From Achatina immaculata (Eukaryota; Mollusca; Gastropoda; Stylommatophora; Achatinidae): a DNA stretch of 64,000 nt. Numbering within the stretch: position 1 is the first letter of the stretch; every line of letters starts with the position of its first letter. The notes beneath the pieces were generated by a model, which was given only the letters and a program-made list of their open reading frames with translations, was not told the origin of the DNA and searched no databases. Position numbers and translations under genes: made by a program. Below, in pieces: positions 2,769 through 38,700 of this stretch. Location: assembly GCA_009760885.1 (NCBI GenBank), contig CM019701.1, positions 12,049,963 through 12,113,962 on the forward strand, in the 5' to 3' direction.

Positions 2769-2911
2769 AGTCCAGAACTATAATTAACTGGAGATACTAG
2801 ATTGGGAGGGGAGGGGGGAGAGGGAGAGAGAAAGTAACAAACCATGATGATGGATGGAAAGTTTTAATTGCTGACTTATTTGATTCTGGAGATGATGATG
2901 ATAATGATGAT

Positions 2912-4775: not shown

Positions 4776-6245
4776 TTATTTCTCAACATGTAAAATGTTT
4801 ATGCACTTAGTCCAGCGATCCTGGAGCATACGGATCAGTTCTTCTAAAAGTCAGCATCTTGTACCAGTAGAAAGTGGTCTACAGCATGAAGGACGTCATC
4901 ATATGAAGCAAATTTGCGACCACTGAGCTCCTTTTTGAGTTTGGTAAACAAGTAATAGTCCTACGGGGCCAACTCTGGGGAATAAGGAGGATGATCAAGA
5001 AGCTGGAAGCCACATTCATGAATGGCAGCCATTGCCACCACCAACTTGTGAACTGGAGCATTGTCTTGCTGAAAGATGACTCCTCTCGTCAATTTCCCTT
5101 GATGCTTCTCCTTCAGTTTGACCCACAGTTGCTTCACCAGATTAGCGTAACAGGCCCCGGTGACCGTTCTGCCCTTTTGAAGATAGTCTACCAATGGAAC
5201 ACCTTCTGAATCCCAAAAGATGGAGGCCATCACTTTGCCTGTAGACAGAACCACCCTTGCTTTCTTTGGAGGTGAGGATCCATGATGTTTCCACTGCTTT
5301 GACTGTTCTTTGGTTTCTGGTTGAAAATGATGAAACCAAGTCTCATCCATAGTCACAATTTGCTGAAGAAAATTTTCAGGATCTGCAGAAAAATGGCCAA
5401 GATTGTCTCTTGACATGTTCAGACGCTGTCGTTCATGATCAGCTCCAAGAAGTTTCGGGACCCACCGAGCATAGACCTTTGTCGTTTGAAGATCATTGTG
5501 AATAATGGCATGAACACATTCCTGGGAGATGCCCAATTCAGTAGCGATGTACTGCTGAGTTATTCGTCGATCTTCCATTATCATGTCATGGATTCTGCTG
5601 GTGGTTTCATCAGTGGTTACCATTCTTGATCTTGAGGATCATCTTCCAGACTCTCTCTTCCATGTTTGAAATGAGCTGCCCATTTCTTCACTGTGCTATA
5701 AGAAGGAGCGCTCTCCCCTAGAGTCTCTACCATACCCTCCCATCCTATATAAAAAATATAAATTATACTCCTTCCTACAACTACAAGCTTTCCCAATATC
5801 TATTTGATGTCGACTACATGCCTCCATGAATTATAAAACTTAAAAGTTATCTTAAGCTGCTCTTACAGACACCGAATACAATTAATTGTTTTCTGAATAG
5901 TCCCGAAAATGTTGTTTAGTAGATAGTCATTTATAATGTATGTAGTTACTTCTGTACTGAGTGAATGTTTAAGAGCGAAACGTAAATGTTATATTTTATT
6001 TTATGTCTCTCAGCTTCAATGTTAGTTATGTGTGTTATATGAACAGCATATTTGTAGAATGTCTGGAATAGAGTGAAAGATGTATGATAAAGGGCAGAAT
6101 GTCAGACGGGCCTGCGTGCCCAATTCTTAACCCTTTTGAAATAAAGATCAATCAATCAATCAATCAATCAATCATGGATCTCCTTCAATGATAAGCCCTT
6201 GATGCAGAGGTAGCGAATGACTGCTCAATGAGAAATTTTATCCAT
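4776..6245 (-). pseudogene. mariner transposase pseudogene (DD34D)
   Basis: Cut-and-paste transposase, inactive here. The N terminus starts at 6245 (MDKISH, in-frame TGA, then AVIRYLCIKGLSLKEIHD), is split by the insertion at 5735-6170, and resumes with MVETLGESAPSYSTVKKW. A frameshift near 5630 precedes the main open part (5623 to 4961). The first catalytic Asp is in MDETW and the second in QQDNAPVH. An in-frame TAG sits exactly one codon before the third Asp (P-stop-D-Y-Y-L-F), keeping the 34-residue spacing of DD34D. A second frameshift precedes the terminal RMLQDRWTKCINILHVEK and TAA at 4776. Confidence 0.93.
5735..6170 (+). mobile_element. Non-LTR retroelement 3' fragment inserted in the mariner
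   Basis: The mariner reading frame breaks between KEIHD (ends near 6171) and MVETLGESAP (resumes near 5734). The intervening ~436 bp is unrelated. It ends in TTTGAAATAAAGATCA followed by (ATCA)n next to the mariner sequence, which looks like a polyadenylation-type signal plus microsatellite tail of a 5'-truncated LINE or SINE. The element family is not identified. Confidence 0.75.
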
Positions 6246-11527: not shown

Positions 11528-12935
11528 TCTATTCTTCTTCTTCTTCGTTCGCTTCTACCACCAAGACCGCCCCGTGATCCTACTGAAATTACTGCCGTGG
11601 TCCTCGGTAGGTCCCGTGGTCCCCGAAAGGACTACACGAGATCCTCGAGAGGACTACAAGAGGTTCAGAGCATCGCGGGGCTTGAGCCTGTATTCTTGGT
11701 GGGTCTCAGAAGCAGGATTGCGTGACACTATGGTTTTCGTTTCACCAGTTTAATCTAGAGTTGAACTTTCTCACTGGAAAACCTCGACGTGGTTTGGATA
11801 TGAGTATATCCCAGCTGGGTGAGAGGTGGTTGCCCACCTAGCCTGGAGTTGGACTTTCTCATCGGAAAACCTCGACGTGTTTTGGGATACCGTGTATCCC
11901 CGCCGGGTGAGAGGTGGTTGCCCAACCAGTCCAGCGTTGGGCTTTCTCACCGGAAAACATCAGCATGATTAGAATACGCATACATCCCCGTCGGGTGAGA
12001 GGTGGTTGCTTATCAGCATTTTGTAGTCGTGGCCGCTACCTTTCCTAGCTGTGACTAGGACGGAGCTTTTGTCCAGGAAGACGAATCCTCGCCACTAGTG
12101 ACTTCCACCCCTGGGTTAAGCCGGTTTAGGCATATTATCCCAGTATGGGCGTGTTTAGGACGTGACCGACCTCTAGAGCGGAGGTACCGTGACTTGAGTA
12201 GCCATCACGTTTCACCCCTGGTTTAAGCCGGTTTAGGCATATTTCACCGGTATGGGTGTAGAACGAACGTGGCCGGCCTCTAGAGCAGAGGCGCCATACT
12301 ATGGGTAGCTCTCGCCGCGAGACTACTGGACATACCAATTAAGCTTCACTTTATCATTTCCATCACCTTCTCACATCGGCGCCGCAGGGCAACCCTGATT
12401 GCTTTTCCTCATTTTCTTCATTGGCCGGGAAGAGTTTCACTCCACGCGCGGCATCCGAAGAGTCTCGCCAGCAGCGTCTTAACCCCTGGGTTAAGCCGGT
12501 TCAGACAATTCGCCCGGTATGAGTGTACAAGGTACGTGGCCAACCTCCAGAGCAGAGGTGCCGTGATTTGAGCAGTCCTGACCTCGAGTCTACTGATTAC
12601 TTCACTTACTCCTTTCTTTCACCTTTTCCACAGTGCCGCAAGGCAACCCATAATCGCACCTTTCTTCACTGGTCGGGAGGAGCCCCACTCCACGCACGGC
12701 AGCTGAAGAATCTCGCCACCAGCGGTAGATGAGCTACCAAATATGACTCTCATCTACCCGAAAATTCTGGTTTTCAGGCGCCAGATATTCGTCTTCGCCC
12801 CTTCTCCTGTCAGTTTAAACAGTTCTGCCACGAGAAGGCCAGGAGCTGGACTTGACTGTCTATTTGAGACGCACGCCACTGGAGTGGAGACCATATCCTC
12901 CACCCCACATCCGGCATTACCAGTCCTTAGAACCA
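11528..12935 (-). mobile_element. Unclassified dispersed repeat 'RepA', copy 1
   Basis: About 1.4 kb matching the reverse complement of 55689-57003. Read on the minus strand it starts GGTTCTAAGGACTG and ends with GAACGAAGAAGAAGAAG, a (GAA)n tail suggesting a retroelement 3' end. The body has two sets of internal direct repeats: a ~60-80-bp block with GGCAACCACCTCTCACC and GGTGAGAAAGTCCAAC, and a block with TAAACCGGCTTAACCCAGGG. I could not find coding motifs. Confidence 0.75.
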
Positions 12936-12959
12936 CAGCGTTCTGCAATTTGGAGTGTA

Positions 12960-13776
12960 GTTTTTATTGATTTTGCTTAAGTGTCTGTTTAGGGTGATAT
13001 GGTTAGGTGTCTGCTCAAGGTGATATGGTTAGGTGTCTGTTTAGGGTTATGTGGTTAAGTGTCTGCTTAAGTGCTTAAGGTGATATGATTGGGTGTCTGT
13101 TTAGGGTGATATGGTTAGGTGTCTGCTTAAGGTGATATGATTAGGTGTCTGCTTAAGGTGATATGATTAGGTGTCTGCTTAAGGTGATATGATTAGGTGT
13201 CTGCTTAAGGTGATATGATTAGGTGTCTGTTTAGGGTGATATGGTTAAGTGTCTGCTTAAGGTGATATGATTAAGTATCTGTTTAGGGTGATATTGTTCA
13301 GTGTCTGTTTAAGGTGATATGATTAGGTGTCTGCTTAAGGTGATATGATTAGGTGTCTGTTTAGGGTGATATGGTTAAGTGTCTGCTTAAGGTGATATGA
13401 TTAGGTGTCTGCTTAAGGTGATATGATTAGGTGTCTGTTTAGGGTGACATGGTTAGATGTCTTCTTAAGGTTATATGATTAGGTGCCTGTTTAGGGTGAT
13501 ATTGTTAGGTGTCTGCTTAAGGTTGATATGATTGGTTGTCTGTTTAGGGTGATATTGTTAGGTGTCTGCTTAAGGTGATATGATTAGGTGTCTGTTTAGG
13601 GTGATATGGTTAAGTGTCTGCTTAAGGTGATATGATTAGGTGTCTGTTTAGGGTGATATTGTTCAGTGTCTGTTTAAGGTGATATGATTAGGTGTCTGCT
13701 TAAGGTGATATGATTAGGTGTCTGTTTAGGGTGATATGGTTAGGTGTCTGCTTAGGGTGAAATGATTATCTGTCTG
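12960..13776. repeat. 26-bp minisatellite, block 1
   Basis: Head-to-tail copies of a 26-bp unit centred on GGTGATATGATTAGGTGTCT with CTTAA/TTTAG variants. The core AGGGTGATATGGTTAG is identical to a 16-bp stretch of the SINE at 2517-2768. Confidence 0.95.
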
Positions 13777-14644
13777 TTTGTCCAGGAAGACGAATCCTCG
13801 CCACTAGTGACTTCCACCCCTGGGTTAAGCCGGTTTAGGCATATTATCCCAGTATGGGCGTGTTTAGGACGTGACCGACCTCTAGAGCGGAGGTACCGTG
13901 ACTTGAGTAGCCATCACGTTTCACCCCTGGTTTAAGCCGGTTTAGGCATATTTCACCGGTATGGGTGTAGAACGAACGTGGCCGGCCTCTAGAGCAGAGG
14001 CGCCATACTATGGGTAGCTCTCGCCGCGAGACTACTGGACATACCAATTAAGCTTCACTTTATCATTTCCATCACCTTCTCACATCGGCGCCGCAGGGCA
14101 ACCCTGATTGCTTTTCCTCATTTTCTTCATTGGCCGGGAAGAGTTTCACTCCACGCGCGGCATCCGAAGAGTCTCGCCAGCAGCGTCTTAACCCCTGGGT
14201 TAAGCCGGTTCAGACAATTCGCCCGGTATGAGTGTACAAGGTACGTGGCCAACCTCCAGAGCAGAGGTGCCGTGATTTGAGCAGTCCTGACCTCGAGTCT
14301 ACTGATTACTTCACTTACTCCTTTCTTTCACCTTTTCCACAGTGCCGCAAGGCAACCCATAATCGCACCTTTCTTCACTGGTCGGGAGGAGCCCCACTCC
14401 ACGCACGGCAGCTGAAGAATCTCGCCACCAGCGGTAGATGAGCTACCAAATATGACTCTCATCTACCCGAAAATTCTGGTTTTCAGGCGCCAGATATTCG
14501 TCTTCGCCCCTTCTCCTGTCAGTTTAAACAGTTCTGCCACGAGAAGGCCAGGAGCTGGACTTGACTGTCTATTTGAGACGCACGCCACTGGAGTGGAGAC
14601 CATATCCTCCACCCCACATCCGGCATTACCAGTCCTTAGAACCA
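13777..14644 (-). mobile_element. RepA partial copy from duplication A
   Basis: The second copy of the RepA segment, truncated at the (GAA)n-proximal side because the duplication breakpoint (GTCCAGGAAG at 13780) lies inside RepA. Its sequence equals 12068-12935. Confidence 0.9.
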
Positions 14645-14668
14645 CAGCGTTCTGCAATTTGGAGTGTA

Positions 14669-16380
14669 GTTTTTATTGATTTTGCTTAAGTGTCTGTTTA
14701 GGGTGATATGGTTAGGTGTCTGCTCAAGGTGATATGGTTAGGTGTCTGTTTAGGGTTATGTGGTTAAGTGTCTGCTTAAGTGCTTAAGGTGATATGATTG
14801 GGTGTCTGTTTAGGGTGATATGGTTAGGTGTCTGCTTAAGGTGATATGATTAGGTGTCTGCTTAAGGTGATATGATTAGGTGTCTGCTTAAGGTGATATG
14901 ATTAGGTGTCTGCTTAAGGTGATATGATTAGGTGTCTGTTTAGGGTGATATGGTTAAGTGTCTGCTTAAGGTGATATGATTAAGTATCTGTTTAGGGTGA
15001 TATTGTTCAGTGTCTGTTTAAGGTGATATGATTAGGTGTCTGCTTAAGGTGATATGATTAGGTGTCTGTTTAGGGTGATATGGTTAAGTGTCTGCTTAAG
15101 GTGATATGATTAGGTGTCTGCTTAAGGTGATATGATTAGGTGTCTGTTTAGGGTGACATGGTTAGATGTCTTCTTAAGGTTATATGATTAGGTGCCTGTT
15201 TAGGGTGATATTGTTAGGTGTCTGCTTAAGGTTGATATGATTGGTTGTCTGTTTAGGGTGATATTGTTAGGTGTCTGCTTAAGGTGATATGATTAGGTGT
15301 CTGTTTAGGGTGATATGGTTAAGTGTCTGCTTAAGGTGATATGATTAGGTGTCTGTTTAGGGTGATATTGTTCAGTGTCTGTTTAAGGTGATATGATTAG
15401 GTGTCTGCTTAAGGTGATATGATTAGGTGTCTGTTTAGGGTGATATGGTTAGGTGTCTGCTTAGGGTGAAATGATTATCTGTCTGTTTAGGGTGATATGG
15501 TTAGTTGTCTGCTTAAAGTGATATGATTTAGTGCCTGTTTAGGGTGATATGGTTAGACGTCTGCTGAAGGTGATATCATTGTGTGTCTATTTGGGTTGAT
15601 ATGGTTAGATGTTTGCTGAAGGTGATATGATTGGGTGTCTGTTTAGAGTGATATGGTTAGGTGTATGTTTAAATTGATATAATTGGGAGTCTGTTTAGGG
15701 TGATATGGTTAGGTGTCTGCTTAAGGTGATATGATTAGGTGTCTGTTTAGGTTGATATGGTTAGGCGTCACTTAGGGTGATATGATTAGGTGTCTGTTTA
15801 GGGTGATATGGTTAGGTGTCTGCTTAAGGTGATATGATCGAGTGTCTGTTTAGAATGCTAGGTGTGTGCTGAAGGTGATATGATTAGGTGTTTGTTTATG
15901 GGATATGTTTAGGTGCATGTTTAAGTTAATATGATTAGGTGTCTGTTTAGGGTGATATGGTTAGACGTCTTCTGAACGTTATATGATTTAGTGTCTGTTT
16001 AGGGTAATATGATTAGACGTCTGCTGAAGGTGATATGACTGGGAGTCTGTTTAGGGTGATATGGTTAGGCGTCGTGTAAGGTGATAAGATTGGGTGTCTG
16101 TTTAGGTTGATATGGTTAGGTGTCTGCTTAAGTTGATATGATTAGGTGTGTGTTTAGGTGATACGGTTAGGTGTCTGTCTGCTTGAGGTAATATGATTGG
16201 GTGTCTGTTTAGGGTGATATGGTTAGGCCTCTGCTTAAGGTGATATGATTGAGTGTCTGATTAGGGTGTTATGGTTAGGCGTCTGCTGAAGGTGATATGA
16301 TTGAGTGTCTGATTAGGGTGTTATGGTTAGGTGTATGTTTAAGTTGATATAACTGGGTGTCTGTTTAGAGTGATATGGTT
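14669..16380. repeat. 26-bp minisatellite, block 2
   Basis: The first ~810 bp duplicates block 1 through duplication A. From 15486 onward the units are more diverged (GACGTCTGCTGAAGG, GGTGTATGTTTAA variants), suggesting the older part of the array. Confidence 0.95.
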
Positions 16381-17439
16381 TGTTGGTAGCCAGAAACTGA
16401 TGAGACCTTGGACACTGAGATCTGCACTTTCACCCATGAACATTTAGTTACACTATCTTGTGCCACTTCCACATGGGAGATTAGCTGCAGTACACCTCCA
16501 GCCTTTTCTGTCTCTCTTGCTCCCATAGTACACACAGTGGACTTCTGTCAAACTCTTGATGTTGTCCACCAGTATGTATTGTTGTTTTGCCTTTTCTCTT
16601 TTTTTTTCATAAATTTTTCCTTCAAGTTCTGTCTTCATTGTAATTTGTCATGGCAGAATATTTTAGCTAGGGTGTTCTTATATGGCATTATTTCTCTTCT
16701 AAGTTTCAATATTTTAGCTAGGGTGTTCTTATATGGCATTATTTCTCTTCTAAACTTCAAATGATTTAGTATTTCCTTGTTTACTTATAACATTTCTCTC
16801 TCTCCCTATTTTTGGATCTGAATAAGACATGAACTGAAATATTACACTGTTTGTTAATGCAGATCACACTTGGCCATATCATAGTTTGAGGTGAAATTTT
16901 TAACATACTCACAAATGTCTGTTTTGACTCACTTTACAAATATTTTCTGTTTTCCAAAAATTGATATCCAAACATGTTGTTATATATGGATGGATGGATG
17001 GAAGAAAGAAAGGAAAGAAAAATAAAAGGTCAGAATACTACTAAGGGATCCATGGACTCTTGAAAGAAAAAAAGAACTTAGCCAACAACCTGAAAAACTT
17101 GAACCAAAGACCTCTTATGTATAAATAACACCCTGCTAATCAGACTCATATAGGTATAAAAACACTAGATGATGTATAGTTATGCAGTTTAATATAATTC
17201 TCTCCAAGTTTCAAAATTCAGTTACAAATGTATACTATACTGGTTGATACACTGAAATACTCCAAGAGTTAACTTTGTTCATAACAAAGTGGACACATTT
17301 TCTAAACATAATATGTAAGGAACAACTGTCCATGTTTTTATCTGTGTTGCTGGAACTAAAAAACAAATTGTCTGCAGACTTGTCTCACTGTATTTCATGT
17401 TAAAGAAGTTACAACAACACATTTAAAGTTGTTCATTCA
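16381..17439. other. Unique-looking segment inside duplication B, copy 1
   Basis: Contains a 54-bp internal duplication (ATATTTTAGCTAGGGTGTTC at 16659 and 16710), a (GGAT)n run near 16990 and no recognised gene. The open frame at 16408-16764 lacks domains and is shortened by a one-base indel in the second copy, which argues against coding. Confidence 0.6.
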
Positions 17440-17580
17440 TGACACAGAGCATCAAGTGGCAAACTGGCAAGGGCACTAGTTTCTCACTGCAAAGGTCAGT
17501 GGTTTGAATCTGACTGGAGGCGACCTGTAGACATAGGTAGCTGGCTTCATCTGGAGCTGGAGAAGGAGTGGCAGCCTGAT
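17440..17580 (+). mobile_element. SINE head, copy 1 (5' part of an expanded SINE)
   Basis: Sequence with a tRNA-like B box (GTGGTTTGAATCTGACTGG) followed by the SINE body motif GGAGGCGACC...GGTAGCTGGC and AGTGGCAGCCTGATGTGATG. In the other SINE copies (for example 47648-48000) the same head leads to one copy of CTGACCACAGCACCCTCT. Here it leads directly into the 24-bp array. Confidence 0.75.
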
Positions 17581-18435
17581 GTGATGCTGACCACATCAGC
17601 CTCTAGTGCAGTGACCACATCACCCTCTAGTGCCACATCAGCCTCTAGTGTGCTGACCACATCAGCCTCTAGTGCAGTGACCACATCAGCCTCTAGTGTG
17701 CTGACCACATCAGCCTCTAGTGCTGTGACCACATCACCCTCTAGTGCCACATCAGCATCTAATGTGCTGACCAAATCACACTCTAGTGTGCTGACCACAT
17801 CACCCTCTGGTGTGCTGATCACATCACCCTCTAGTGCTGTGACCACATCATCTTCTAGTGTGCTGACCACATCATCCTCTAGTGCTGTGATCATATCAGC
17901 CTCTAGTGTGCTGACCACATCACCCTCTAGTGCTGTGACCACATCAGCCTCTAGTGTGGTGACCACATCACCCTCTAGTGCTGTGACCACATCAGCCTCT
18001 ACTGTGCTGACCACATCACCCTCTAGTGTGCTGACCACATCACCCTCTATTGTGCTGACCACATCATCCTCTAGTGCTGTGACCACATCAGCCTCTAGTG
18101 CTGTGACCACATCAGCCTCTACTGTGCTGACCACATCAGTCTCTAGTGCTATGACCACATCAGCCTCTATTGCTGTGACCACATCACCCTCTAGTGTGCT
18201 GACCACATCACCCTCTAGTGTGCTGACCACATCACCCTCTAGTACTGTGACCACATCACCCTCTAGTGTGTTGACCACATCACCCTCTAGTGTGTTGACC
18301 ACATCAGCCTCTAGTGTGCTGACCACATCACCCTCTAGTGTGCTGACCACATCACCCTCTAGTGTGCTGATAAAATCAACCTCTAGTGCTGTGATCACAT
18401 CACCCTCTAGTGTTCTGACCACATCACCCTCTGTT
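17581..18435. repeat. 24-bp minisatellite, block 1
   Basis: About 35 head-to-tail copies of CTGACCACATCACCCTCTAG plus TGTG/TGCT, with CACC/CAGC and GTGCTG/GCTGTG variants and a few shortened units. The period is eight codons and stop-free, so the plus strand reads as TTSPSSVL repeats and the minus strand as EGDVVSTL repeats. Confidence 0.97.
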
Positions 18436-18922
18436 TAGGGTGATATGGTTAGGTGTCTGCTTAAGGTGATATGATTAGGTGTCTGTTTAGGGTGATATGG
18501 TTAGACGTCTTCTGAACGTTATATGATTTAGTGTCTGTTTAGGGTAATATGATTAGACGTCTGCTGAAGGTGATATGACTGGGAGTCTGTTTAGGGTGAT
18601 ATGGTTAGGTGTCTGCTTAAGGTGATATGATTGGGTGTCTGTTTAGGTTGATATGGTTAGGTGTCTGCTTAAGTTGATATGATTAGGTGTCTGTTTAGGG
18701 TGATATGGTTAGGTGTCTGTCTGCTTGAGGTAATATGATTGGGTGTCTGTTTAGGGTGATATGGTTAGGCCTCTGCTTAAGGTGATATGATTGGGTGTCT
18801 GTTTAGGGTGATATGGTTAGACGTCTGCTGAAGGTGATATGATTGAGTGTCTGATTAGGGTGTTATGGTTAGGTGTCTGCTTAAGGTGATATGATTGGGT
18901 GTCTGTTTAGAGTGATATGGTT
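18436..18922. repeat. 26-bp minisatellite, block 3
   Basis: The duplicated distal portion of block 2, abutting the 24-bp array at ACCCTCTGTTTAGGGTGAT, the duplication B junction. The match is to 15895-16380 with scattered unit differences. Confidence 0.93.
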
Positions 18923-19980
18923 TGTTGGTAGCCAGAAACTGATGAGACCTTGGACACTGAGATCTGCACTTTCACCCATGAACATTTAGTTACACTATCT
19001 TGTGCCACTTCCACATGGGAGATTAGCTGCAGTACACCTCCAGCCTTTTCTGTCTCTCTTGCTCCCATAGTACACACAGTGGACTTCTGTCAAACTCTTG
19101 ATGTTGTCCACCAGTATGTATTGTTGTTTTGCCTTTTCTCTTTTTTTTCATAAATTTTTCCTTCAAGTTCTGTCTTCATTGTAATTTGTCATGGCAGAAT
19201 ATTTTAGCTAGGGTGTTCTTATATGGCATTATTTCTCTTCTAAGTTTCAATATTTTAGCTAGGGTGTTCTTATATGGCATTATTTCTCTTCTAAACTTCA
19301 AATGATTTAGTATTTCCTTGTTTACTTATAACATTTCTCTCTCTCCCTATTTTTGGATCTGAATAAGACATGAACTGAAATATTACACTGTTTGTTAATG
19401 CAGATCACACTTGGCCATATCATAGTTTGAGGTGAAATTTTTAACATACTCACAAATGTCTGTTTTGACTCACTTTACAAATATTTTCTGTTTTCCAAAA
19501 ATTGATATCCAAACATGTTGTTATATATGGATGGATGGATGGAAGAAAGAAAGGAAAGAAAAATAAAAGGTCAGAATACTACTAAGGGATCCATGGACTC
19601 TTGAAAGAAAAAAAGAACTTAGCCAACAACCTGAAAAACTTGAACCAAAGACCTCTTATGTATAAATAACACCCTGCTAATCAGACTCATATAGGTATAA
19701 AAACACTAGATGATGTATAGTTATGCAGTTTAATATAATTCTCTCCAAGTTTCAAAATTCAGTTACAAATGTATACTATACTGGTTGATACACTGAAATA
19801 CTCCAAGAGTTAACTTTGTTCATAACAAAGTGGACACATTTTCTAAACATAATATGTAAGGAACAACTGTCCATGTTTTTATCTGTGTTGCTGGAACTAA
19901 AAAACAAATTGTCTGCAGACTTGTCTCACTGTATTTCATGTTAAAGAAGTTACAACAACACATTTAAAGTTGTTCATTCA
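18923..19980. other. Unique-looking segment inside duplication B, copy 2
   Basis: A near-identical copy of 16381-17439. No gene recognised. Confidence 0.6.
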
Positions 19981-20121
19981 TGACACAGAGCATCAAGTGG
20001 CAAACTGGCAAGGGCACTAGTTTCTCACTGCAAAGGTCAGTGGTTTGAATCTGACTGGAGGCGACCTGTAGACATAGGTAGCTGGCTTCATCTGGAGCTG
20101 GAGAAGGAGTGGCAGCCTGAT
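19981..20121 (+). mobile_element. SINE head, copy 2
   Basis: A duplicate of the SINE head at 17440-17580, again leading straight into 24-bp units. Confidence 0.75.
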
Positions 20122-23090
20122 GTGATGCTGACCACATCAGCCTCTAGTGCAGTGACCACATCACCCTCTAGTGTGCTGACCACATCAGCCTCTAGTGTGC
20201 TGACCACATCAGCCTCTAGTGCAGTGACCACATCAGCCTCTAGTGTGCTGACCACATCAGCCTCTAGTGCTGTGACCACATCACCCTCTAGTGCCACATC
20301 AGCATCTAATGTGCTGACCAAATCACACTCTAGTGTGCTGACCACATCACCCTCTAGTGTGCTGACCACATCACCTCTAGTGCTGTGACCACATCATCTT
20401 CTAGTGTGCTGACCACATCACCCTCTACTGCTGTGATCACATCACCCTCTAGTGTGCTGACCACATCAGCCTCTAGTGTGCTGACCACATCACCCTCTAG
20501 TGCACTGACATCAGCCTCTAGTGCTGTGACCACATCAGCCTCTAGTGTGCTGACCACATCAGCCTCTAGTGTGCTGACCACATCAGCCTCTAGTGTGCTG
20601 ACCACATCAGCCTCTAGTGTGCTGACCACATCAGCCTCTAGTGTGCTGATCACATCAGCCTCTAGTGTGCAGTGACCACATCACCCTCTAGTGCTGTGAC
20701 CATATCACCCTCTAGTGCTGTGACCACATCACCTCTAGTGCTGTGACCACATCACCCTCTAGTGTGCTGACCACATCAGCCTCTAGTGCTGTGACCACAT
20801 CAGCCTCTAGTGTGCTGACCACATCAGCCTCTAGTGCTGTGACCACATCACCCTCTAGTGTGCTGACCACATCACCCTCTAGTGTGCTGACCACATCACC
20901 CTCTAGTGTGCTGACCACATCACCCTATAGTGTGCTGACCACATCACCCTCTAGTGCTGTGACCACATCAGCCTCTAGTGTGGTGACCACATCACCCTCT
21001 AGTGCTGTGACCACATCAGCCTCTACTGTGCTGACCACATCACCCTCTAGTGTGCTGACCACATCACCCTCTATTGTGCTGACCACATCAGCCTCTAGTG
21101 CTGTGACCACATCAGCCTCTAGTGCTATGACCACATCAGCCTCTACTGTGCTGACCACATCAGCCTCTAGTGTGCTGACCACATCACCCTCTAGTGCTGT
21201 GACCACATCAGCCTCTAGTGTGCTGACCACATCAGCCTTTAGTGTGCTGACCACATCAGTCTCTAGTGTGCTGACCACATCACCCTCTAGTGTGCTGACC
21301 ACATCACCCTCTACTGCTGTGATCACATCACCCTCTAGTGTGCTGACCACATCACCCTCTAGTGTGCTGACCACATCACCCTCTAGTGCTGTGACGACAT
21401 CAGCCTCTAGTGCTGTGACCACATCAACCTCTAGTGCTGTGACCACATCAGCCTCTAGTGTGCTGACTACATCACCCTCTAGTGCGCTGACCACATCATC
21501 CTCTAGTGTGCTGACCACATCAGCCTCTAGTGTGCTGACCACATCAGCCTCTAGTGTGCTGGCCACATAACCCTCTAGTGCTGTGACCATATCACCCACT
21601 AGTGCTGTGATCACATCACCCTCTAGTGCTGTGACCACATCACCCTCTAGTGTGGTGACCACATCAGCATCTAGTGCTGTGACCACATCAGCCTCTAGTG
21701 TGCTGACCACATCACCCTCTAGTGCTGTGACCACATCAGCCTCTAGTGTGCTGACCACATCACCCTCTAGTGCGCTGACCACATCAGCCTCTAGTGTGCT
21801 GACCACATCAGCCTCTAGTGTGCTGACCACATCAGCCTCTAGTGTGCTGACCACATCACCCTCTAGTGCTGTGACCATATCACCCTCTAGTGCTGTGATC
21901 ACATCACCCTCTAGTGCTGTGACCACATCACCCTCTAGTGTGGTGACCACATCAGCATCTAGTGCTGTGACCACATCACCCTCTAGTGTGCTGACCACAT
22001 CACCCTCTACTGCTGTGATCACATCACCCTCTAGTGTGCTGACCACATCACCCTCTAGTGTGCTGACCACATCACCCTCTAGTGCTGTGACGACATCAGC
22101 CTCTAGTGCTGTGACCACATCAACCTCTAGTGCTGTGACCACATCAGCCTCTAGTGTGCTGACTACATCACCCTCTAGTGCGCTGACCACATCATCCTCT
22201 AGTGTGCTGACCACATCAGCCTCTAGTGTGCTGACCACATCAGCCTCTAGTGTGCTGGCCACATAACCCTCTAGTGCTGTGACCATATCACCCACTAGTG
22301 CTGTGATCACATCACCCTCTAGTGCTGTGACCACATCACCCTCTAGTGTGGTGACCACATCAGCATCTAGTGCTGTGACCACATCAGCCTCTAGTGTGCT
22401 GAACACATCAGCCTCTAGTGCTGTGACCACATCAGCCTCTAGTGTGCTGACCACATCACCCTCTAGTGTTCTGACCACATCAGCCTCTATTGTGCTGACC
22501 ACATCAGCTTCTAGTGTGCTGACCACATCACCCTCTAGTGCTGTGACCACATCAGCCTCTAGTGTGCTGATCACATCACCCTCTAGTGTTCTGACCACAT
22601 CAGCCTCTAATGCTGTGACCACATCACCCTCTAGTGTGCTGACCACATCAGCCTCTAGTGTGCACATCACCCTCTAGTGTGGTGACCACATCACCCTCTA
22701 GTGCTGTGATCACATCACCCTCTAGTGCTGTGACCACATCAGCCTCTAGTGCAGTGACCACATCACCCTCTAGTGCTGTGATCACATCACCCTCTAGTGC
22801 TGTGACCACATCAGCCTCTAGTGTGCTGACCACATCAGCCTCTAGTGTGCTGACCACATCAGCCTCTAGTGCTGTGACCACATCAGCCTCTAGTGTGCTG
22901 ACCACATCAGCCTCTAGTGCTGTGACCACATCAGCCTCTAGTGCTGTGACCACATCACCCTCTAGTGCCACATCAGCCTCTAGTGCACTGACATCACCCT
23001 CTAGTGTGCTGACTACATCACCCTCTAATGCGGTGACCACATCACCCTCTAGTGCACTGACCACATCCCCCTCTAGTGTGCCAACGAATC
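20122..23090. repeat. 24-bp minisatellite, block 2 (~3 kb)
   Basis: More than 120 units. It contains higher-order duplication: roughly 21300-21580 repeats at 21996-22276 with an offset of 696 bp (29 x 24), including a shared GGCCACATAACC variant. Single-unit deletions at 20376, 20510, 20668 and 20730 shift the frame. The array ends at GTGTGCCAACGAATCAAGG, where SINE tail sequence begins. Confidence 0.97.
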
Positions 23091-23160
23091 AAGGAAAATA
23101 TGGGCACTATCACCATGTCCCCTAGGTGCCTCCATCAAACCACAGGGATAACTTTACCCA
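23085..23160 (+). mobile_element. SINE tail after the 24-bp array
   Basis: ATCAAGGAAAATATGGGCAC, TATCACCATGTCCCC and GGTGCCTCCAT match the tail of the SINEs at 2517-2768 (GGTCAAGGAAAATATGGGCA) and 47930-47990. This places the whole array inside one SINE-derived locus. Confidence 0.75.
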
Positions 23161-23870
23161 CCTTTACCTACTCATGCTGCAAACATTTAAGAATTTGCTG
23201 TCCACAAAACATTTATATTTTTCACTCCTGCTTCTGAAACTTTCCCAGGTGGAACGTATCTATGATGAACAACAACAACAGAAACAATATCGCAACTGTG
23301 AAATCATGCAAAAGCAAATTTTGTTGTCACTTTTTATCCAAAATATTAAAACAGACAACACAGTACCACAACAGAATACTGACAATGAAGTAAATATTTT
23401 AATAGCTCTGACAACATAACAAAGCAGATTTTTCCTGCTTCACCTGAATGTGTACACTGCACGTGTACAGAAAATCATGGAAGATGTCATTCTGTATCAA
23501 TGATAGAACTATAAAGAACACAAATATCTGGCAATGCCTGCTTGCCATTTTATAAATTACATTATAATTTGTAATATCACCAAGCTGTCCAACAATGAAA
23601 CATATGAACATGTCTGTTTCTCAAGATAACCATTTTAATATGTAATAAGGTGTACTTGATATGAAAAATAACAGTGTACCTCAGGAACTGTTAGCCATAT
23701 TAGAGAATTTGATTGACAGTGGATGAAAGTGTGTAGTGTTATTTTGTAAAAACAGGAAAATTGGAGATGAAAGAAGGAAAAAAAAAAAAAAAGGTAAATG
23801 TAAATACTTTCTTCAAAAGGCCACTATTTGTAGCTTCACCTTCTTTGTTTAAGAAAGACTGATATTTTCT
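23161..23870. other. No gene recognised
   Basis: AT-rich unique-looking sequence, present again at 25204-25912. Short frames of 70-97 residues have no recognised domain, and one is altered by the single-base difference between copies. Confidence 0.5.
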
Positions 23871-23874
23871 TTAT

Positions 23875-24175
23875 TGCATTACTTCCAACTTCTTCAGCAG
23901 TTTTATCCTACTGTCTCCACCTTGGTAAGTATGCAGGAAACTACAGTAGAAAGCAGAACAACAACACAACTCCCTAGATCATCAGAGGAAGTACCCCCCT
24001 CCCCAGACAAGTGTTTCAGCCCTATTAAACTCCTGACACTCGGGGGTGGGGGGGTGGGGAGGAGTTGTGACTCTCAGGGGTCTGTGAGTTTTTTTTTTTT
24101 TCATCCCGTTCCAGGATAGAATCACCTAGAAATGCATTTAAGCCTTTCTGCCATGGGGGAGCGGTATTAGATGTG
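23875..24175 (+). repeat. Dispersed repeat shared (inverted) with 45870-46080
   Basis: CCTAGATCATCAGAGGAAGT, CCCCAGACAAGTGTTTC and the nearby G-rich run are matched in reverse complement at 45910-45975 (AGTTCTCTGATGATCT-type sequence next to TTGTCTGGGGTGGG). Family unknown. The copy at 25917-26217 arises from duplication C. Confidence 0.55.
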
Positions 24176-24179
24176 ATAA

Positions 24180-24295
24180 TTTTATGTATAAACTATATAT
24201 AATGTATAATATATATAGTGTATATATAATGTATAATATATATATATATATAATGTATAATGTATGTATAAGTTATAATATATAATGTGTATATC
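24180..24295. repeat. TA-rich microsatellite
   Basis: Alternating TATATA and TATAATG runs. Repeated at about 26222-26335 in duplication C with a small length change. Confidence 0.9.
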
Positions 24296-24296
24296 T

Positions 24297-24757
24297 TAAC
24301 CAAGTTAAGATTATTCAATTCAAATATGATATCCACCCTCATTTATGCATGTGAAAGCTGGAAAACAACTAAAGAAATAGACAAGAAATTAGAGACTCTT
24401 TCTAAAACAAATGCCTAAGGAAAATACTTGGTATAAAGTGGAGCGAATTCAAGAATGCAGAGATAAGACAGATGAGCAAACAACAACCTGTCTCATGGGT
24501 GATCAGAAAAAAGAAGATGGACATATGTAGGTCATACAATGAGAAGAAACAGTCAGAGAATACCAAAACAAGCTATCAAGTGGAGTACAACGGGTCGAAG
24601 AAAAAGAGGTCAACCGAGTGAAACTCTAAAGAGGACAGTTTAGTTTTTTAACATCCCTCGATGAGGTTGAAAGCTCGCTGAAAATAGGAAATCTTGGCAA
24701 GCTACCATGCAAGCCCTATGTGACGTTTAGCGGCACAGGAAGGATATAAGAAGATAT
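24297..24757 (+). pseudogene. LINE 3' end, copy 1
   Basis: Matches 44840-45310: frames read LRLFNSNMISTLIYACESWK, MGDQKKEDGHM, and a segment like SLDEVESSLKIGNLGK in broken frames. It ends at CGGCACAGGAAGGATATAAG, the same terminus as the other family members. Several stops and frame changes are present. Confidence 0.85.
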
Positions 24758-26338
24758 TAGAACAATTATCATTTCATTCATTGCCCAACAGAAATAACAA
24801 TTTATGGAGTTAAAAAACTGATAGAATATTTAGTGAACAGACATATCAAAATTTGTTATGTCTGCTAACCTGCCATGATTTTAGCAGCATAATGTGTGAC
24901 ACATGAAGTACAAGTGTACTATGGAATCAAAACATGTCACACACAGTCTGCTATAGTTGTAAAAGTACAGTTTGTCACAGTGTGCTCTTGTCAAAATGCA
25001 CCCTCTAGTGCCACATCAGCCTCTAGTGCACTGACATCACCCTCTAGTGTGCTGACTACATCACCCTCTAATGCGGTGACCACATCACCCTCTAGTGCAC
25101 TGACCACATCCCCCTCTAGTGTGCCAACGAATCAAGGAAAATATGGGCACTATCACCATGTCCCCTAGGTGCCTCCATCAAACCACAGGGATAACTTTAC
25201 CCACCTTTACCTACTCATGCTGCAAACATTTAAGAATTTGCTGTCCACAAAACATTTATATTTTTCACTCCTGCTTCTGAAACTTTCCCAGGTGGAACGT
25301 ATCTATGATGAACAACAACAACAGAAACAATATCGCAACTGTGAAATCATGCAAAAGCAAATTTTGTTGTCACTTTTTATCCAAAATATTAAAACAGACA
25401 ACACAGTACCACAACAGAATACTGACAATGAAGTAAATATTTAATAGCTCTGACAACATAACAAAGCAGATTTTTCCTGCTTCACCTGAATGTGTACACT
25501 GCACGTGTACAGAAAATCATGGAAGATGTCATTCTGTATCAATGATAGAACTATAAAGAACACAAATATCTGGCAATGCCTGCTTGCCATTTTATAAATT
25601 ACATTATAATTTGTAATATCACCAAGCTGTCCAACAATGAAACATATGAACATGTCTGTTTCTCAAGATAACCATTTTAATATGTAATAAGGTGTACTTG
25701 ATATGAAAAATAACAGTGTACCTCAGGAACTGTTAGCCATATTAGAGAATTTGATTGACAGTGGATGAAAGTGTGTAGTGTTATTTTGTAAAAACAGGAA
25801 AATTGGAGATGAAAGAAGGAAAAAAAAAAAAAAAGGTAAATGTAAATACTTTCTTCAAAAGGCCACTATTTGTAGCTTCACCTTCTTTGTTTAAGAAAGA
25901 CTGATATTTTCTTTATTGCATTACTTCCAACTTCTTCAGCAGTTTTATCCTACTGTCTCCACCTTGGTAAGTATGCAGGAAACTACAGTAGAAAGCAGAA
26001 CAACAACACAACTCCCTAGATCATCAGAGGAAGTACCCCCCTCCCCAGACAAGTGTTTCAGCCCTATTAAACTCCTGACACTCGGGGGTGGGGGGGTGGG
26101 GAGGAGTTGTGACTCTCAGGGGTCTGTGAGTTTTTTTTTTTTTCATCCCGTTCCAGGATAGAATCACCTAGAAATGCATTTAAGCCTTTCTGCCATGGGG
26201 GAGCGGTATTAGATGTGATAATTTTATGTATAAACTATATAATGTATAATATATATAGTGTATATATAATGTATAATATATATATATATATAATGTATAA
26301 TGTATGTATAAGTTATAATATATAATGTGTATATCTTA

Positions 26339-26798
26339 ACCAAGTTAAGATTATTCAATTCAAATATGATATCCACCCTCATTTATGCATGTGAAAGCTG
26401 GAAAACAACTAAAGAAATAGACAAGAAATTAGAGACTCTTTCTAAAACAAATGCCTAAGGAAAATACTTGGTATAAAGTGGAGCGAATTCAAGAATGCAG
26501 AGATAAGACAGATGAGCAAACAACAACCTGTCTCATGGGTGATCAGAAAAAAGAAGATGGACATATGTAGGTCATACAATGAGAAGAAACAGTCAGAGAA
26601 TACCAAAACAAGCTATCAAGTGGAGTACAACGGGTCGAAGAAAAAGAGGTCAACCGAGTGAAACTCTAAAGAGGACAGTTTAGTTTTTTTAACATCCCTC
26701 GATGAGGTTGAAAGCTCGCTGAAAATAGGAAATCTTGGCAAGCTACCATGCAAGCCCTATGTGACGTTTAGCGGCACAGGAAGGATATAAGAAGATAT
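26339..26798 (+). pseudogene. LINE 3' end, copy 2 (duplication C)
   Basis: A near-identical copy of 24297-24757, with one extra T in the T-run near 26690. Confidence 0.85.
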
Positions 26799-27041
26799 TA
26801 GAACAATTATCATTTCATTCATTGCCCAACAGAAATAACAATTTATGGAGTTAAAAAACTGATAGAATATTTAGTGAACAGACATATCAAAATTTGTTAT
26901 GTCTGCTAACCTGCCATGATTTTAGCAGCATAATGTGTGACACATGAAGTACAAGTGTACTATGGAATCAAAACATGTCACACACAGTCTGCTATAGTTG
27001 TAAAAGTACAGTTTGTCACAGTGTGCTCTTGTCAAAATGCA

Positions 27042-28036
27042 ACATCTTGTGAAATTTTGCAGATGTTAAGAACGTGTGAAACAGTGTGCATGGAATGATT
27101 TAAAATACATGATATGCCAGTCTATTCTCAATCAAGCAACAGTATAATTATAAATAGTGTAATTATTTACAAAATGTAAAACTGTACAACTGACAGTTTT
27201 TATGAAAATAATCATTATAAATCAGTACATTTTTTTTATACATGTAGGACTGTATGTTTAATATAATTTTAATACATTCTTCTTCCTCTACTTTGTTGTT
27301 TACCTTCAAAAGGGTGCTGGCTGCATTGTGTTACAGTTATGTGCCTTTAGACTCAACTTATATGACTTTGGCTTGTAATATTTTCAGGATGCGTTTATCT
27401 TCCCACTGTGATTCTTATTCACTTGGCCATGTTATCTTTCTGTTTCTAGAAGGACCGCTGGGAGGCAGAATAGGGTCTTGGCCAGTTATATAACATTATT
27501 TATATTCTCCACTTTCTACTGTTGCTATTTTAGTTGTACTATTTCAGTTATTGTGGTGCAAGTGCTAGAGTGATTATTGTGGTGCATGTGCTATAGTGAT
27601 TATTGTGGTGCACGTGCTACAGTGATCATTGTGGTGCATGTGTTGAGTGTTACTTTTCAGTATCACGTACATAAATCTCTCAGCAGTTCTAACGTGTCCC
27701 ATGCTGCAGACAAATGGCTGCAGAATGACGGCCTTTGAAGAGCTTACTTCACTACAGTACACTATATCAAACTGCTGACAAGCTATTTTGAACTCCATGC
27801 AAGTCTGATTAATCTGTGTGATACACATTGAGTCATCACTGTCTAGTGGTGGCACCAGCCCTTATATACCTGTCTATCACTTTATCAATTTTAATATTTT
27901 AGCATTCATTCCACTGTGCTGTTTCAAGAATACAGAATATGACAAAATAAGCTTATCAAACTATCAGTTCTATAAAATTTCAATATGCGAAAACTGGTCC
28001 AGCAGACCAATCTGTGACAAAATCAGAGCTCACGTG
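27042..28036. other. No gene recognised; 26-bp x 4 repeat at 27545-27640
   Basis: AT-rich DNA with a small tandem repeat (ATTGTGGTGCATGTGCTATA unit). Short frames on both strands have no domains. Duplicated as 28540-29536. Confidence 0.5.
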
Positions 28037-28040
28037 AACC

Positions 28041-28292
28041 AGAAAAAAGAAGATGGACATATGTAGGTCATACAATGAGAAGAAACAGTCAGAGAATACC
28101 AAAACAAGCTATCAAGTGGAGTACAACGGGTCGAAGAAAAAGAGGTCAACCGAGTGAAACTCTAAAGAGGACAGTTTAGTTTTTTTAACATCCCTCGATG
28201 AGGTTGAAAGCTCGCTGAAAATAGGAAATCTTGGCAAGCTACCATGCAAGCCCTATGTGACGTTTAGCGGCACAGGAAGGATATAAGAAGAT
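28041..28292 (+). pseudogene. LINE 3' end, copy 3 (clipped by duplication D)
   Basis: The same sequence as 26545-26796, with its 5' side lost at the duplication D junction. Confidence 0.85.
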
Positions 28293-29569
28293 ATTAGAAC
28301 AATTATCATTTCATTCATTGCCCAACAGAAATAACAATTTATGGAGTTAAAAAACTGATAGAATATTTAGTGAACAGACATATCAAAATTTGTTATGTCT
28401 GCTAACCTGCCATGATTTTAGCAGCATAATGTGTGACACATGAAGTACAAGTGTACTATGGAATCAAAACATGTCACACACAGTCTGCTATAGTTGTAAA
28501 AGTACAGTTTGTCACAGTGTGCTCTTGTCAAAATGCAACATCTTGTGAAATTTTGCAGATGTTAAGAACGTGTGAAACAGTGTGCATGGAATGATTTAAA
28601 ATACATGATATGCCAGTCTATTCTCAATCAAGCAACAGTATAATTATAAATAGTGTAATTATTTACAAAATGTAAAACTGTACAACTGACAGTTTTTATG
28701 AAAATAATCATTATAAATCAGTACATTTTTTTTATACATGTAGGACTGTATGTTTAATATAATTTTAATACATTCTTCTTCCTCTACTTTGTTGTTTACC
28801 TTCAAAAGGGTGCTGGCTGCATTGTGTTACAGTTATGTGCCTTTAGACTCAACTTATATGACTTTGGCTTGTAATATTTTCAGGATGCGTTTATCTTCCC
28901 ACTGTGATTCTTATTCACTTGGCCATGTTATCTTTCTGTTTCTAGAAGGACCGCTGGGAGGCAGAATAGGGTCTTGGCCAGTTATATAACATTATTTATA
29001 TTCTCCACTTTCTACTGTTGCTATTTTAGTTGTACTATTTCAGTTATTGTGGTGCAAGTGCTAGAGTGATTATTGTGGTGCATGTGCTATAGTGATTATT
29101 GTGGTGCACGTGCTACAGTGATCATTGTGGTGCATGTGTTGAGTGTTACTTTTCAGTATCACGTACATAAATCTCTCAGCAGTTCTAACGTGTCCCATGC
29201 TGCAGACAAATGGCTGCAGAATGACGGCCTTTGAAGAGCTTACTTCACTACAGTACACTATATCAAACTGCTGACAAGCTATTTTGAACTCCATGCAAGT
29301 CTGATTAATCTGTGTGATACACATTGAGTCATCACTGTCTAGTGGTGGCACCAGCCCTTATATACCTGTCTATCACTTTATCAATTTTAATATTTTAGCA
29401 TTCATTCCACTGTGCTGTTTCAAGAATACAGAATATGACAAAATAAGCTTATCAAACTATCAGTTCTATAAAATTTCAATATGCGAAAACTGGTCCAGCA
29501 GACCAATCTGTGACAAAATCAGAGCTCACGTGAACCAAAAAAAAAAAAAAATGTGTTAAACAGAACAGT

Positions 29570-29910
29570 TAAGCATTTCATCAACAGATATCATTATGCG
29601 GTACCGGGTTCAAGGAATAAAATTCATAAGCAGCATTTATTTACACAGCACTGTGACTGCTTCAGTGGTACCAGTTCCAGTCCCGGCAGCGGGTTTTTTT
29701 TTCTGGTGCACACCGAAAAGGCCTCGGGGTTCACCCAGCCTCTAGAAACGGGCGCCAGGGAAATCTTGGAAGGTAAAGCAGCCAGGTGTGATACTGACCA
29801 CATCACACTTTCATGTGCAGAAGGTCATGGAAAATACAGGCCTAACACCGTATTCCCCAACATGCCTTAATGGAATGGAAACGGGAATTTTACCTTTAAC
29901 CTTTACCTGT
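29570..29910 (+). mobile_element. tRNA-derived SINE
   Basis: Contains CCAGTTCCAGTCCCGG (B-box-like), the body motif GCAGCCAGGTGTGATACTGA followed by CCACATCACACTTTCATGTG, and the tail TAATGGAATGGAAACGGG then ACCTTTAACCTTTACC. It is related to the 62840-63115 copy. It has one unexpanded copy of the ACTGACCACATCAC motif. Confidence 0.7.
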
Positions 29911-35700: not shown

Positions 35701-38700
35701 CGTATTCTATACTGGATTATGACACAGTTAAGGTAAGTATAAAGTAGATTTTATTGCTCAGCCCTAAAATTTTTTAGTGCCAAAAAATTGTTCCATCGTT
35801 TCATACCAGTTTTTTTTTCTTTTCTTTGTTTTTTAAAATGACAAATAACTTAATTTATGGAATCTTCATTCAATTCCACTTATTTTAATGTGTGATACAC
35901 ACATAGTGTTCAAGGAATTAAGTTGGTACAATAACTTTTACACAGGGACCCCCTCCCCCCTCCCCAAAATGTCTGCGTCATAGGGAACATAAGGAACGTT
36001 TTTGACATAACACAAACGGAAAGAGTTAAAACAAAAAAGAGACCATCGACTAAAAGAGCGACATGACACTGTCACATTCCCTGACAGATGATAAACTGGA
36101 AGACTTGCTGAATTAGCTTACCTAATATTAGACCATCTAAGATTCAGGTGGGTGCTGAAAGTTTCTCGAACATCATGAGTCCAAGACCACAGTCATATCC
36201 ACAACCTTCTAGAAGATCCTACCCCCACCCCTATGCCACCCCCCCATGCGGTTGGTAGCTGATCAACCACTGTATGGGCGCTCTCTGGTATGAAATAAAC
36301 ACTCTGACCATTTTATAAATGGACGTTGAGGTGAAAAACAGTAGGGTGTCTGTCATGAATCAGAAATCTACTCTGTTGATCATGTGTTTCGTTATCACAT
36401 TTGTTAAAACGTTCAGGAAGTCAGCAGATAAAACATCATCGATTTGGGTGGGCTGACCTCTGTCCGCTGTGGCTGACAACCTGATCATATCACGGGAGTT
36501 ACTTCCCATCGTTCAGTGGGGTACTGTTTGTATCAATCGACCCCCAAAACCCAGGCCCCCCCCAGGGGCCCTAGGGATGATCTAACCCATAAGGTGCACT
36601 GTCCAGATTGTAAGTCATCTGTGTGCCAAGTTTGGTTGAAATTGCTCCAGGCGTTCCAGCGTGATGCTCTAACACACATATTTACACACACATGTTAATT
36701 TATATATATATATATAGATTACACCTACCTTATAACAGCAGTTTGCCAGCAGAAACAACAAAGCAACTGCCATAGTAAATGACATGGACAGAGCCAGAAG
36801 ATTAATGCTCAGCTCTTTATTATTGTAAAAGAAACATGAGCCATCTCCAGTGCATCGTTTCTGCCACAACAAGCATGCAAAGTCAAACATTTTTCCAAAC
36901 AGGATTGGACCTGGAATTGATCCTGCAGTCAGACAAAAATCATCTCATTTGAGCTAGGGAAAATGGTGAAAATTGGGGACTAATTATTGTGTAGTTTTTG
37001 AGGATCTGAATGGTGAAATGGTTAGTTCAAGTCATCTTACAAGATGAAGATCTGTTGTTCAGTCCCAGCAGGAGGTGGCTAAATATCTAATTAACCGAAG
37101 AAATAAGTTGTTGGCCCCTCCTTGGGTTGGGAAGGAAAGACAGCCAGAAGTGATACTGACAGCACTGCCTTCTGTGTAATAAGTCCAGGAAAACATCTGC
37201 TCATACACCATACCTCCCTCCTGCCTCAAATGCATGGAATAAAATCAAATAAATTATGGGCACTAACATCCATTTTCCTATATTCCTCATTAGTATGCAA
37301 CAGTCCAGTGAAAAAATGAGCCAAAACACAATATCTCCCATATGTATCATTAGCATATCGTAGTGTCACCTTTACTTTCACCTTGCACATTCTACTGTAA
37401 TGACTCATAAGATAGGCTAATATTTATTACAAATGGGAAGACTCTGATAGGCTAATATTCATCACAAGTGGGAAGACTCTGATAGGCTAATATTCATTAC
37501 AAGTGGGAAGACTCTGATAGGCTAATATTCATCATAAGTGGGAAGACTGACAGGCTAATATTCATATAAGTGGGAAGACTCCGATAGGCTAATATTCATC
37601 ACAAGTGGGAAGACTCTGATAGGCTAATATTCATTACAAGTTGAAAGAGTCTGATAGGCTAATATTCATTACAAGTTGAAAGAGTCTGATAGGCTAATAT
37701 TCATTACAAGTTGAAAGAGTCTGATAGGCTAATATTCATCACAAGTGGGAAGACTCCGATAGGCTAATATTCATCATAAGTGGGAAGACTCTGATAGGCT
37801 AATATTCATTACAAGTTGAAAGAGTCTGATAGGCTAATATTCATTACAAGTGGGAAGACTCTGATAGGCTAATATTCATACAAGTGGGAAGACTCTGATA
37901 GGCTAATATTCATACAAGTGGGAAGACTCTGATAGGCTAATATAAGTGGGAAGACTCTGATAGGCTAATATTCATCACAAGTGGGAAGACTCTGATAGGC
38001 TAATATTCATAGAAATGGGAAGACTCTGATAGGCTAATATAAGTGGGAAGACTCTGATAGGCTAATATTCATATAAGTGGGAAGACTCTGATAGGCTAAT
38101 ATAAGTGGGAAGACTCTGATAGGCTAATATTCATATAAGTGTGAAGACTCTGATAGGCTAATATTCATCACAAGTGGGAAGACTCTGACAGGCTAATATT
38201 CATATAAGTGGGAAGACTCCGATAGGCTAATATTCATCACAAGTGGGAAGACTCTGATAGGCTAATATTCATTACAAGTTGAAAGAGTCTGATAGGCTAA
38301 TATTCATTACAAGTTGAAAGAGTCTGATAGGCTAATATTCATTACAAGTTGAAAGAGTCTGATAGGCTAATATTCATCACAAGTGGGAAGACTCCGATAG
38401 GCTAATATTCATCATAAGTGGGAAGACTCTGATAGGCTAATATTCATTACAAGTTGAAAGAGTCTGATAGGCTAATATTCATTACAAGTGGGAAGACTCT
38501 GATAGGCTAATATTCATACAAGTGGGAAGACTCTGATAGGCTAATATTCATACAAGTGGGAAGACTCTGATAGGCTAATATAAGTGGGAAGACTCTGATA
38601 GGCTAATATTCATCACAAGTGGGAAGACTCTGATAGGCTAATATTCATAGAAATGGGAAGACTCTGATAGGCTAATATAAGTGGGAAGACTCTGATAGGC

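Follow-up and report, generated by a model that had tools for sequence, protein, structure and literature searches.

We analyzed a 64-kb stretch of DNA from Achatina immaculata (contig CM019701.1; the whole stretch is referred to as the window), which contains a long array of a 24-bp unit associated with a short interspersed nuclear element (SINE). Sequence comparison within the window gives us considerable confidence that the 24-bp array grew inside the SINE from a piece of its interior, and that it did so in place. This agrees with the central claim of the original prediction that the unit is SINE interior expanded on the spot: the two edges of the array both keep the register of the SINE, its consensus is common with that of the array-free SINE copies, and no unit lies outside the SINE loci of the window. 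The prediction went on to describe the locus as the birth of a satellite, which is overstated because the array occupies one locus of the window and no spread over multiple loci was seen there. What is present is a single-locus minisatellite, as far as the window goes, rather than a demonstrated satellite.

The 24-bp unit and its counterpart in the SINE

SINE loci were identified with an nhmmer profile built from the SINE loci of the window itself, and arrays were delimited with Tandem Repeats Finder (TRF) and, for unit counts, by our own parsing into units, which yields a short lead-in row in each block in addition to the units counted. Over both strands of the 64 kb, the profile returned eight high-scoring segments that correspond to six loci when the array locus, with its duplicated heads and tails, is taken as one; the element thus has the several scattered copies of a common short sequence that characterize a dispersed SINE. 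The features of the array locus and the five other SINE copies are:

17440-17586, plus strand: SINE head and body leading up to the array, first copy (nhmmer 17441-17608)
17457-17467 and 17501-17511, plus strand: A box-like and B box-like motifs of the first SINE head (gap of 33 bases, 3 mismatches)
17587-18432, plus strand: 24-bp array, block 1, 36 units, the last one partial (TRF 17585-18432, 35.8 copies)
18430-18922, plus strand: 26-bp array, 18.7 copies (TRF), directly abutting the end of block 1
19981-20127, plus strand: second copy of the SINE head and body before the array, the head matching the first at 100% over 151 bases (profile match starts at 19982)
20128-23080, plus strand: 24-bp array, block 2, 124 units (TRF 20126-23081, 124.1 copies)
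23081-23169, plus strand: SINE tail, first copy, starting with CCAACGAATCAAGG (nhmmer 23056-23169)
24999-25122, plus strand: 24-bp array, piece 3, ~5 units, a copy of 22956-23079 (TRF 25011-25121, 4.8 copies)
25123-25212, plus strand: SINE tail, second copy (nhmmer 25099-25212)
2507-2772, minus strand: array-free SINE copy with one motif (2589-2612)
29690-29908, plus strand: array-free SINE copy, body and tail only, with one motif (29794-29817)
37002-37270, plus strand: array-free SINE copy, motif diverged and shortened
47648-48006, plus strand: SINE copy without the 24-bp array, one motif (47906-47929), two profile matches
62838-63059, minus strand: array-free SINE copy with one diverged motif (62924-62947)

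All three SINE copies listed in the original prediction besides the array locus were recovered, while those at 37002-37270 and 62838-63059 had been overlooked. The prediction also held that the other copies share head, tail and exactly one copy of the motif. This is borne out for the motif, which occurs once in four of the five array-free copies, the fifth (37002-37270) having diverged too far to be scored with 6 mismatches allowed; the head is not shared by the copy placed at 29570-29910, in which similarity to the SINE starts only near 29690. Absence of the 24-bp motif from the SINE consensus, named in the prediction as evidence to the contrary, is not what the copies in the window display.

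The majority unit over the 160 units of blocks 1 and 2 is CTGACCACATCACCCTCTAGTGTG. The single motifs in the four scorable array-free copies match this unit at 22, 20, 20, and 19 of 24 positions, and the majority of the first three copies equals the array majority at 24 of 24 positions. When the fourth copy (62838-63059) is included, the array majority agrees at 21 of 24 positions, ties at 3 and is contradicted at none; the copy at 37002-37270, in which the stretch is shortened, was omitted from both counts. Searching the 64 kb with the 24-mer at up to 6 mismatches gave no match outside the SINE loci. Moreover, when the array locus was collapsed to one unit and aligned to the four array-free copies, the local scores were 124, 62, 40, and 49, compared with maxima of 27, 25, 25, and 24 for the same alignments after 200 shuffles each.

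The edges of the array lead to the same reading. On the left, the array locus reads GTGATG-CTGACC and the other SINE copies read GTGATA-CTGACC; on the right, it reads GTGTG-CCAACGAATCAAGG and the others GTGTG-CTGACAGGTCAAGG, the tail starting with the latter in the array-free copies 2507-2772 and 47648-48006. Because both edges match the context of the single unit, the array begins and stops at the site of that unit. The unit is thus a piece of the SINE located at its own place in the SINE, as is required of a SINE-derived minisatellite.

Within blocks 1 and 2, 148 of 158 unit intervals are 24 bp, the others being 18 bp (four), 23 bp (two), 21 bp (two), 26 bp (one), and 19 bp (one), and the mean pairwise identity of units is 0.924. 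Two variants predominate: position 13 is either C or G (77 and 72 of the 158 units read, respectively) and the unit border is either GTGCTG or GCTGTG. In block 2, the 17 consecutive units 51-67 reappear exactly as units 80-96, i.e. 29 units further on. The first 15 units of the two blocks are collinear, 13 differences being counted between them. After unit 15, block 2 continues with 20 extra units and then with nine units matching units 16-24 of block 1, and past unit 24 of block 1 the similarity is weaker. Of note, the array is non-coding and no function is implied.

Tandem duplications and the copy number of the locus

The original prediction placed the array at 17440-23160 between one SINE head and one SINE tail. 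A head does lie to the left and a tail to the right; however, the array is in two blocks and the head appears again at 19981 and the tail at 25123. Nor is this one continuous array from head to tail, because block 1 stops at 18432 and passes straight into the 26-bp array without a tail, and piece 3 at 24999-25122 had been overlooked. The surroundings explain this layout: within 17.5 kb (12-29.5 kb), we found four tandem duplications of 1.5-2.5 kb each:

12068-13776 and 13777-15485: tandem duplication 1, 1712 of 1712 positions identical, the match extending 3 bases past the unit
15893-18431 and 18432-20976: tandem duplication 2 (~2.54 kb), unique flank identical at 1060 of 1060 positions, with one extra base on one side
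22956-24998 and 24999-27041: tandem duplication 3, 99.8% identical over 2046 positions, with 0 mismatches and 3 gaps
26544-28039 and 28040-29547: tandem duplication 4, 2 mismatches in 1508 positions

The second head and the second tail are accounted for by the tandem copies of duplications 2 and 3, respectively. In duplication 2, BLAST found the 24-bp part to be 91.7% alike and the 26-bp part 95.3% alike. The predicted expansion to well over 150 units in two blocks is misleading: the units add up to 160 (36 + 124), but the blocks are parts of two copies of a tandemly duplicated or twice-assembled segment, and 160 may, therefore, count one array partly twice.

We slightly favor the explanation that the two-block layout is a false duplication, in which contig ends lying in repeats were joined and their overlap left unmerged, so that the real locus has one head, one array, and one tail. 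This would account for four tandem duplications in 17.5 kb almost without divergence. In three of the four an array lies at the junction, the kind of sequence in which contigs are prone to end, and PMC9516828 documents false duplications next to assembly or depth gaps. On the other hand, the false duplications described there usually have a gap or depth gap between the copies, and runs of N are absent from the window. Also, substitutions and a 20-unit difference set block 1 apart from block 2, and plain doubling thus fails for block 1, while two alleles would fit. Finally, the three junctions examined share 3, 0, and 2 bp, which fits true non-homologous junctions equally well. The alternative is that these are very recent real duplications beside fast-changing arrays, and it is only by a small margin of judgment that we lean to an artefact. 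If the layout is artefactual, the locus is simpler than assembled, with one head, ~124 units, and one tail, and is closer to the picture originally drawn. It is important to note that the origin of the unit is independent of whether the duplications are real or artefactual.

Growth of the array and competing origins

The model that best explains the locus is as follows. A SINE copy with tRNA-like promoter boxes would have inserted at the locus, and its interior 24 bp, CTGACCACATCACCCTCTAGTGTG, followed in the family consensus by a second CTGAC, would have doubled on the spot. The simplest route to this would be for the two CTGAC pentamers, which are spaced by 24 bp, to have undergone slippage or unequal exchange. 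The tandem stretch would then have been lengthened by slippage, conversion, and block duplication to ~124 units. The exact recurrence of 17 units and the 20-unit difference between blocks suggest growth by multi-unit blocks as well as by single steps. The head and the tail, which are present at the array edges, would have been left there by this expansion, and the second head, the second tail, and the extra array pieces would stem from the tandem duplication of the surrounding segments, whether real or assembly-made. Such a start corresponds to the Haber-Louis model, in which short flanking repeats seed minisatellites by slippage or exchange (as outlined in PMC6947457 and PMC3389668). Across five loci, the majority core has two CTGAC pentamers at a distance of exactly 24 bp, i.e. 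one unit.

The SINE carries tRNA-like promoter boxes. Scored against a consensus, the A and B box-like motifs are separated by exactly 33 bases, a tRNA-like spacing, at three loci, 17457 (plus strand), 2756 (minus strand), and 63107 (minus strand), with 3, 1, and 2 mismatches, respectively. Two more loci have gaps of 34 and 32 bases and 4 mismatches, a match quality also reached by chance, and the boxes were not found in the SINE copy at 29690. Box pairs arising by chance numbered 0, 0.1, 1.4, and 16.45 on average at up to 1, 2, 3, and 4 mismatches, respectively (20 simulations).

Several observations weigh against this model or parts of it. No intermediates with two or three units are present in the window, and no convincing target-site duplication was found, the best candidate being 12 bases with 1 mismatch in an AT-rich flank outside the element ends. 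ARAGORN reported 0 tRNA genes in the whole window, and Rfam gave no match at E<=1 for the two heads tested (2660-2800 and 17430-17560). Our claim is, therefore, limited to tRNA-like boxes, with the predicted tRNA derivation likely but not proven. Only one of the five array-free copies preserves both flanking CTGAC pentamers, the right-hand one of which reads CCAAC at the array locus itself; a repeat of at least 5 bp at a spacing of 24 arises in the core in 9.45% of 2,000 shuffles, and the core holds 2 such repeats, below the shuffle average of 4.0. A start of the array from flanking CTGAC repeats is suggestive only.

The missing intermediates would also fit an array that was lengthened elsewhere, the SINE having been retroposed with many units inside or having recombined with a pre-existing array. 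We consider this improbable, given that four of the five array-free copies have one unit, neither an array nor a single unit lies away from the SINE loci in the 64 kb, and the array edges coincide with the position of the single unit. Still less credible is a chance resemblance between the SINE and an independent minisatellite, the least probable of the origins considered. The window is rich in such repeats, with 30 tandem arrays covering 18,928 of 64,000 bases (29.6%; period of at least 12, at least 3 copies, TRF score of at least 100), yet head, register, unit consensus, and tail all agree, and for none of the four copies did any of 200 shuffles reach the observed alignment score.

It could also be argued that the array is a coding exon for a Ser/Thr-rich mucin-like protein with an 8-residue repeat such as LTTSPSSV, because the unit is 3 x 8 bp and one sense frame is open across block 1 (331 residues). 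However, this frame starts in or runs through the SINE head, and in block 2 the frame is broken by the 19-, 23-, and 26-bp intervals. Variant states are non-synonymous at 22 of 49 possible and synonymous at 9 of 23, giving no sign of constraint, and the two array open reading frames tested matched no Pfam family. Based on the broken frame in block 2, the lack of constraint, and the lack of a Pfam family, we rejected the coding reading, which we hold to be very improbable.

Returning to growth within the SINE, the copy at 47648-48006 contains a separate tandem repeat in its head/promoter region, a 39-bp unit present 2.9 times at 47687-47801 (TRF). This 39-bp repeat is unrelated to the 24-bp unit, so the array locus is not the only place at which this SINE has undergone internal duplication. 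One may speculate, although we consider it unlikely, that the SINE family is a recurrent minisatellite nursery by virtue of built-in short repeats (24 bp in the body and 39 bp in the head; two of six loci in 64 kb), with the 24-bp array possibly carrying dozens of weak CTCF-like sites. The minus strand of the array (17585-25122) contains ACACTAGAGGGTG, which resembles a 13-base CTCF core consensus with 2 mismatches; 69 such matches lie in the three array pieces, and blocks 1 and 2 account for 65 of them. The window as a whole has 78 matches with 2 or fewer mismatches, compared with a shuffle mean of 13.7 (largest 23); because one array family supplies 69 of the 78, all with 2 mismatches, these amount to about one event. 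A single better match, with 1 mismatch, is at 2132-2144.

Folding of four units on the minus strand was better than that of shuffles (z -2.48, 3 of 200 shuffles as good) and on the plus strand worse (z 1.15, 178 of 200 as good), and this signal for DNA secondary structure of the array is too weak to build on. Four array-free SINE copies lie 48-620 bases from the nearest array, a comparison that leaves out the fifth copy, found later; since random placement did as well in 13% of 20,000 trials, we do not claim that SINE placement is linked to arrays.

Relation to known repeats and other features of the window

Minisatellites born from SINEs are already documented; what is new here is the instance, with another SINE, another unit, and very clear array-free copies nearby. 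Squamate SINE-derived satellites (sSats), described from 56 genomes, are tandem arrays from SINE interiors whose edges retain the SINE ends (Vassetzky et al. 2023, PMC10702118). As at the present locus, the units of sSats stem from inside a SINE related to tRNA, and longer units at the array ends reach the SINE terminus; retention of both SINE ends, as seen here, is rare among sSats (PMC10702118). At cobra loci, units are 89% and SINE copies 64% alike (PMC10702118); here, similarly, units are 92% alike and SINE copies much more diverged. Unlike the present 24-bp unit at one locus of the window, sSats have units of ~70-290 nt, many loci, and a subtelomeric preference (PMC10702118), and their SINE differs, as far as can be told, from the one described here. 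Because 24 bp falls outside the sSat length range, we did not file the array as an sSat.

Human minisatellites include 7,276 derived from transposable elements (TEs), 23% of those examined, of which 300 are flanked by direct repeats of 5-20 bp; flanking repeats and slippage account for only 6% of the TE-derived cases (Ahmed and Liang 2012, PMC3389668). Like these arrays, including those from Alu, the present array is confined to a single locus and would have grown locally from a TE interior, but that set was filtered for at least 95% unit identity and has a mean of ~2.3-2.4 units for Alu (PMC3389668), whereas here well over 100 units are 92% alike. The mouse B1-derived variable number tandem repeat family (Bois 1998) and human Alu-derived minisatellites (Jurka and Gentles 2006), which appear as entries in PMC9659126 and PMC6947457, are likewise founded on a short SINE piece but differ in SINE, unit, and position. 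The central tandem repeats of DINE/Helitron and Pearl elements are similar in that a TE interior holds or feeds repeats (PMC9659126), but these are DNA transposons, while the element described here has RNA polymerase III-like boxes.

This case is unusually legible: array-free copies, array, head, and tail lie within 64 kb, which allows the founding piece to be traced nucleotide by nucleotide. Counting SINE copies with one, two, and three or more units genome-wide would allow the first growth steps and the role of short flanking repeats to be quantified. Caution is warranted regarding the copy number of the locus, which is unreliable given the near-identical tandem duplications. SINE sequence strings had no match in a sequence-based literature search, and neither a 22-base pattern of the unit nor a degenerate core pattern had any match in a viral contig collection. 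One core-pattern match in a genome contig collection (L001, a Desulfoluna metagenome-assembled genome) was rejected because the similarity stops after 20-24 bases.

The 26-bp array neighboring the SINE array has a unit like TTAGGTGTCTGCTTAAGGTGATATGA and occupies 12977-13776, 14686-16380, and 18430-18922. With up to 7 mismatches allowed, the rest of the window contained no single copy of this unit, and the 26-bp array is, as far as seen, not SINE-derived.

The window is animal DNA, and its minus strand holds exons of an organic anion transporter gene:

63163-63501, minus strand: organic anion transporter exon (Pfam OATP, 9.1e-25)
46229-46561, minus strand: Kazal_2 stretch of the organic anion transporter gene (Pfam Kazal_2, 3.1e-08)

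Two further exon-like stretches on the minus strand, 59142-59345 and 36672-36944, presumably belong to the same transporter gene, judging from motifs. A gap of more than 11 kb separates the last of these four stretches from the 24-bp array locus. A mariner-like transposase open reading frame of 225 residues lies at 4961-5638 on the minus strand (Transposase_1, 4.4e-21). Inverted repeats of ~1.1 kb that are 81% similar, at 11839-12935 and 55687-56790, contain internal 88- and 107-bp repeats and probably represent another mobile element family.

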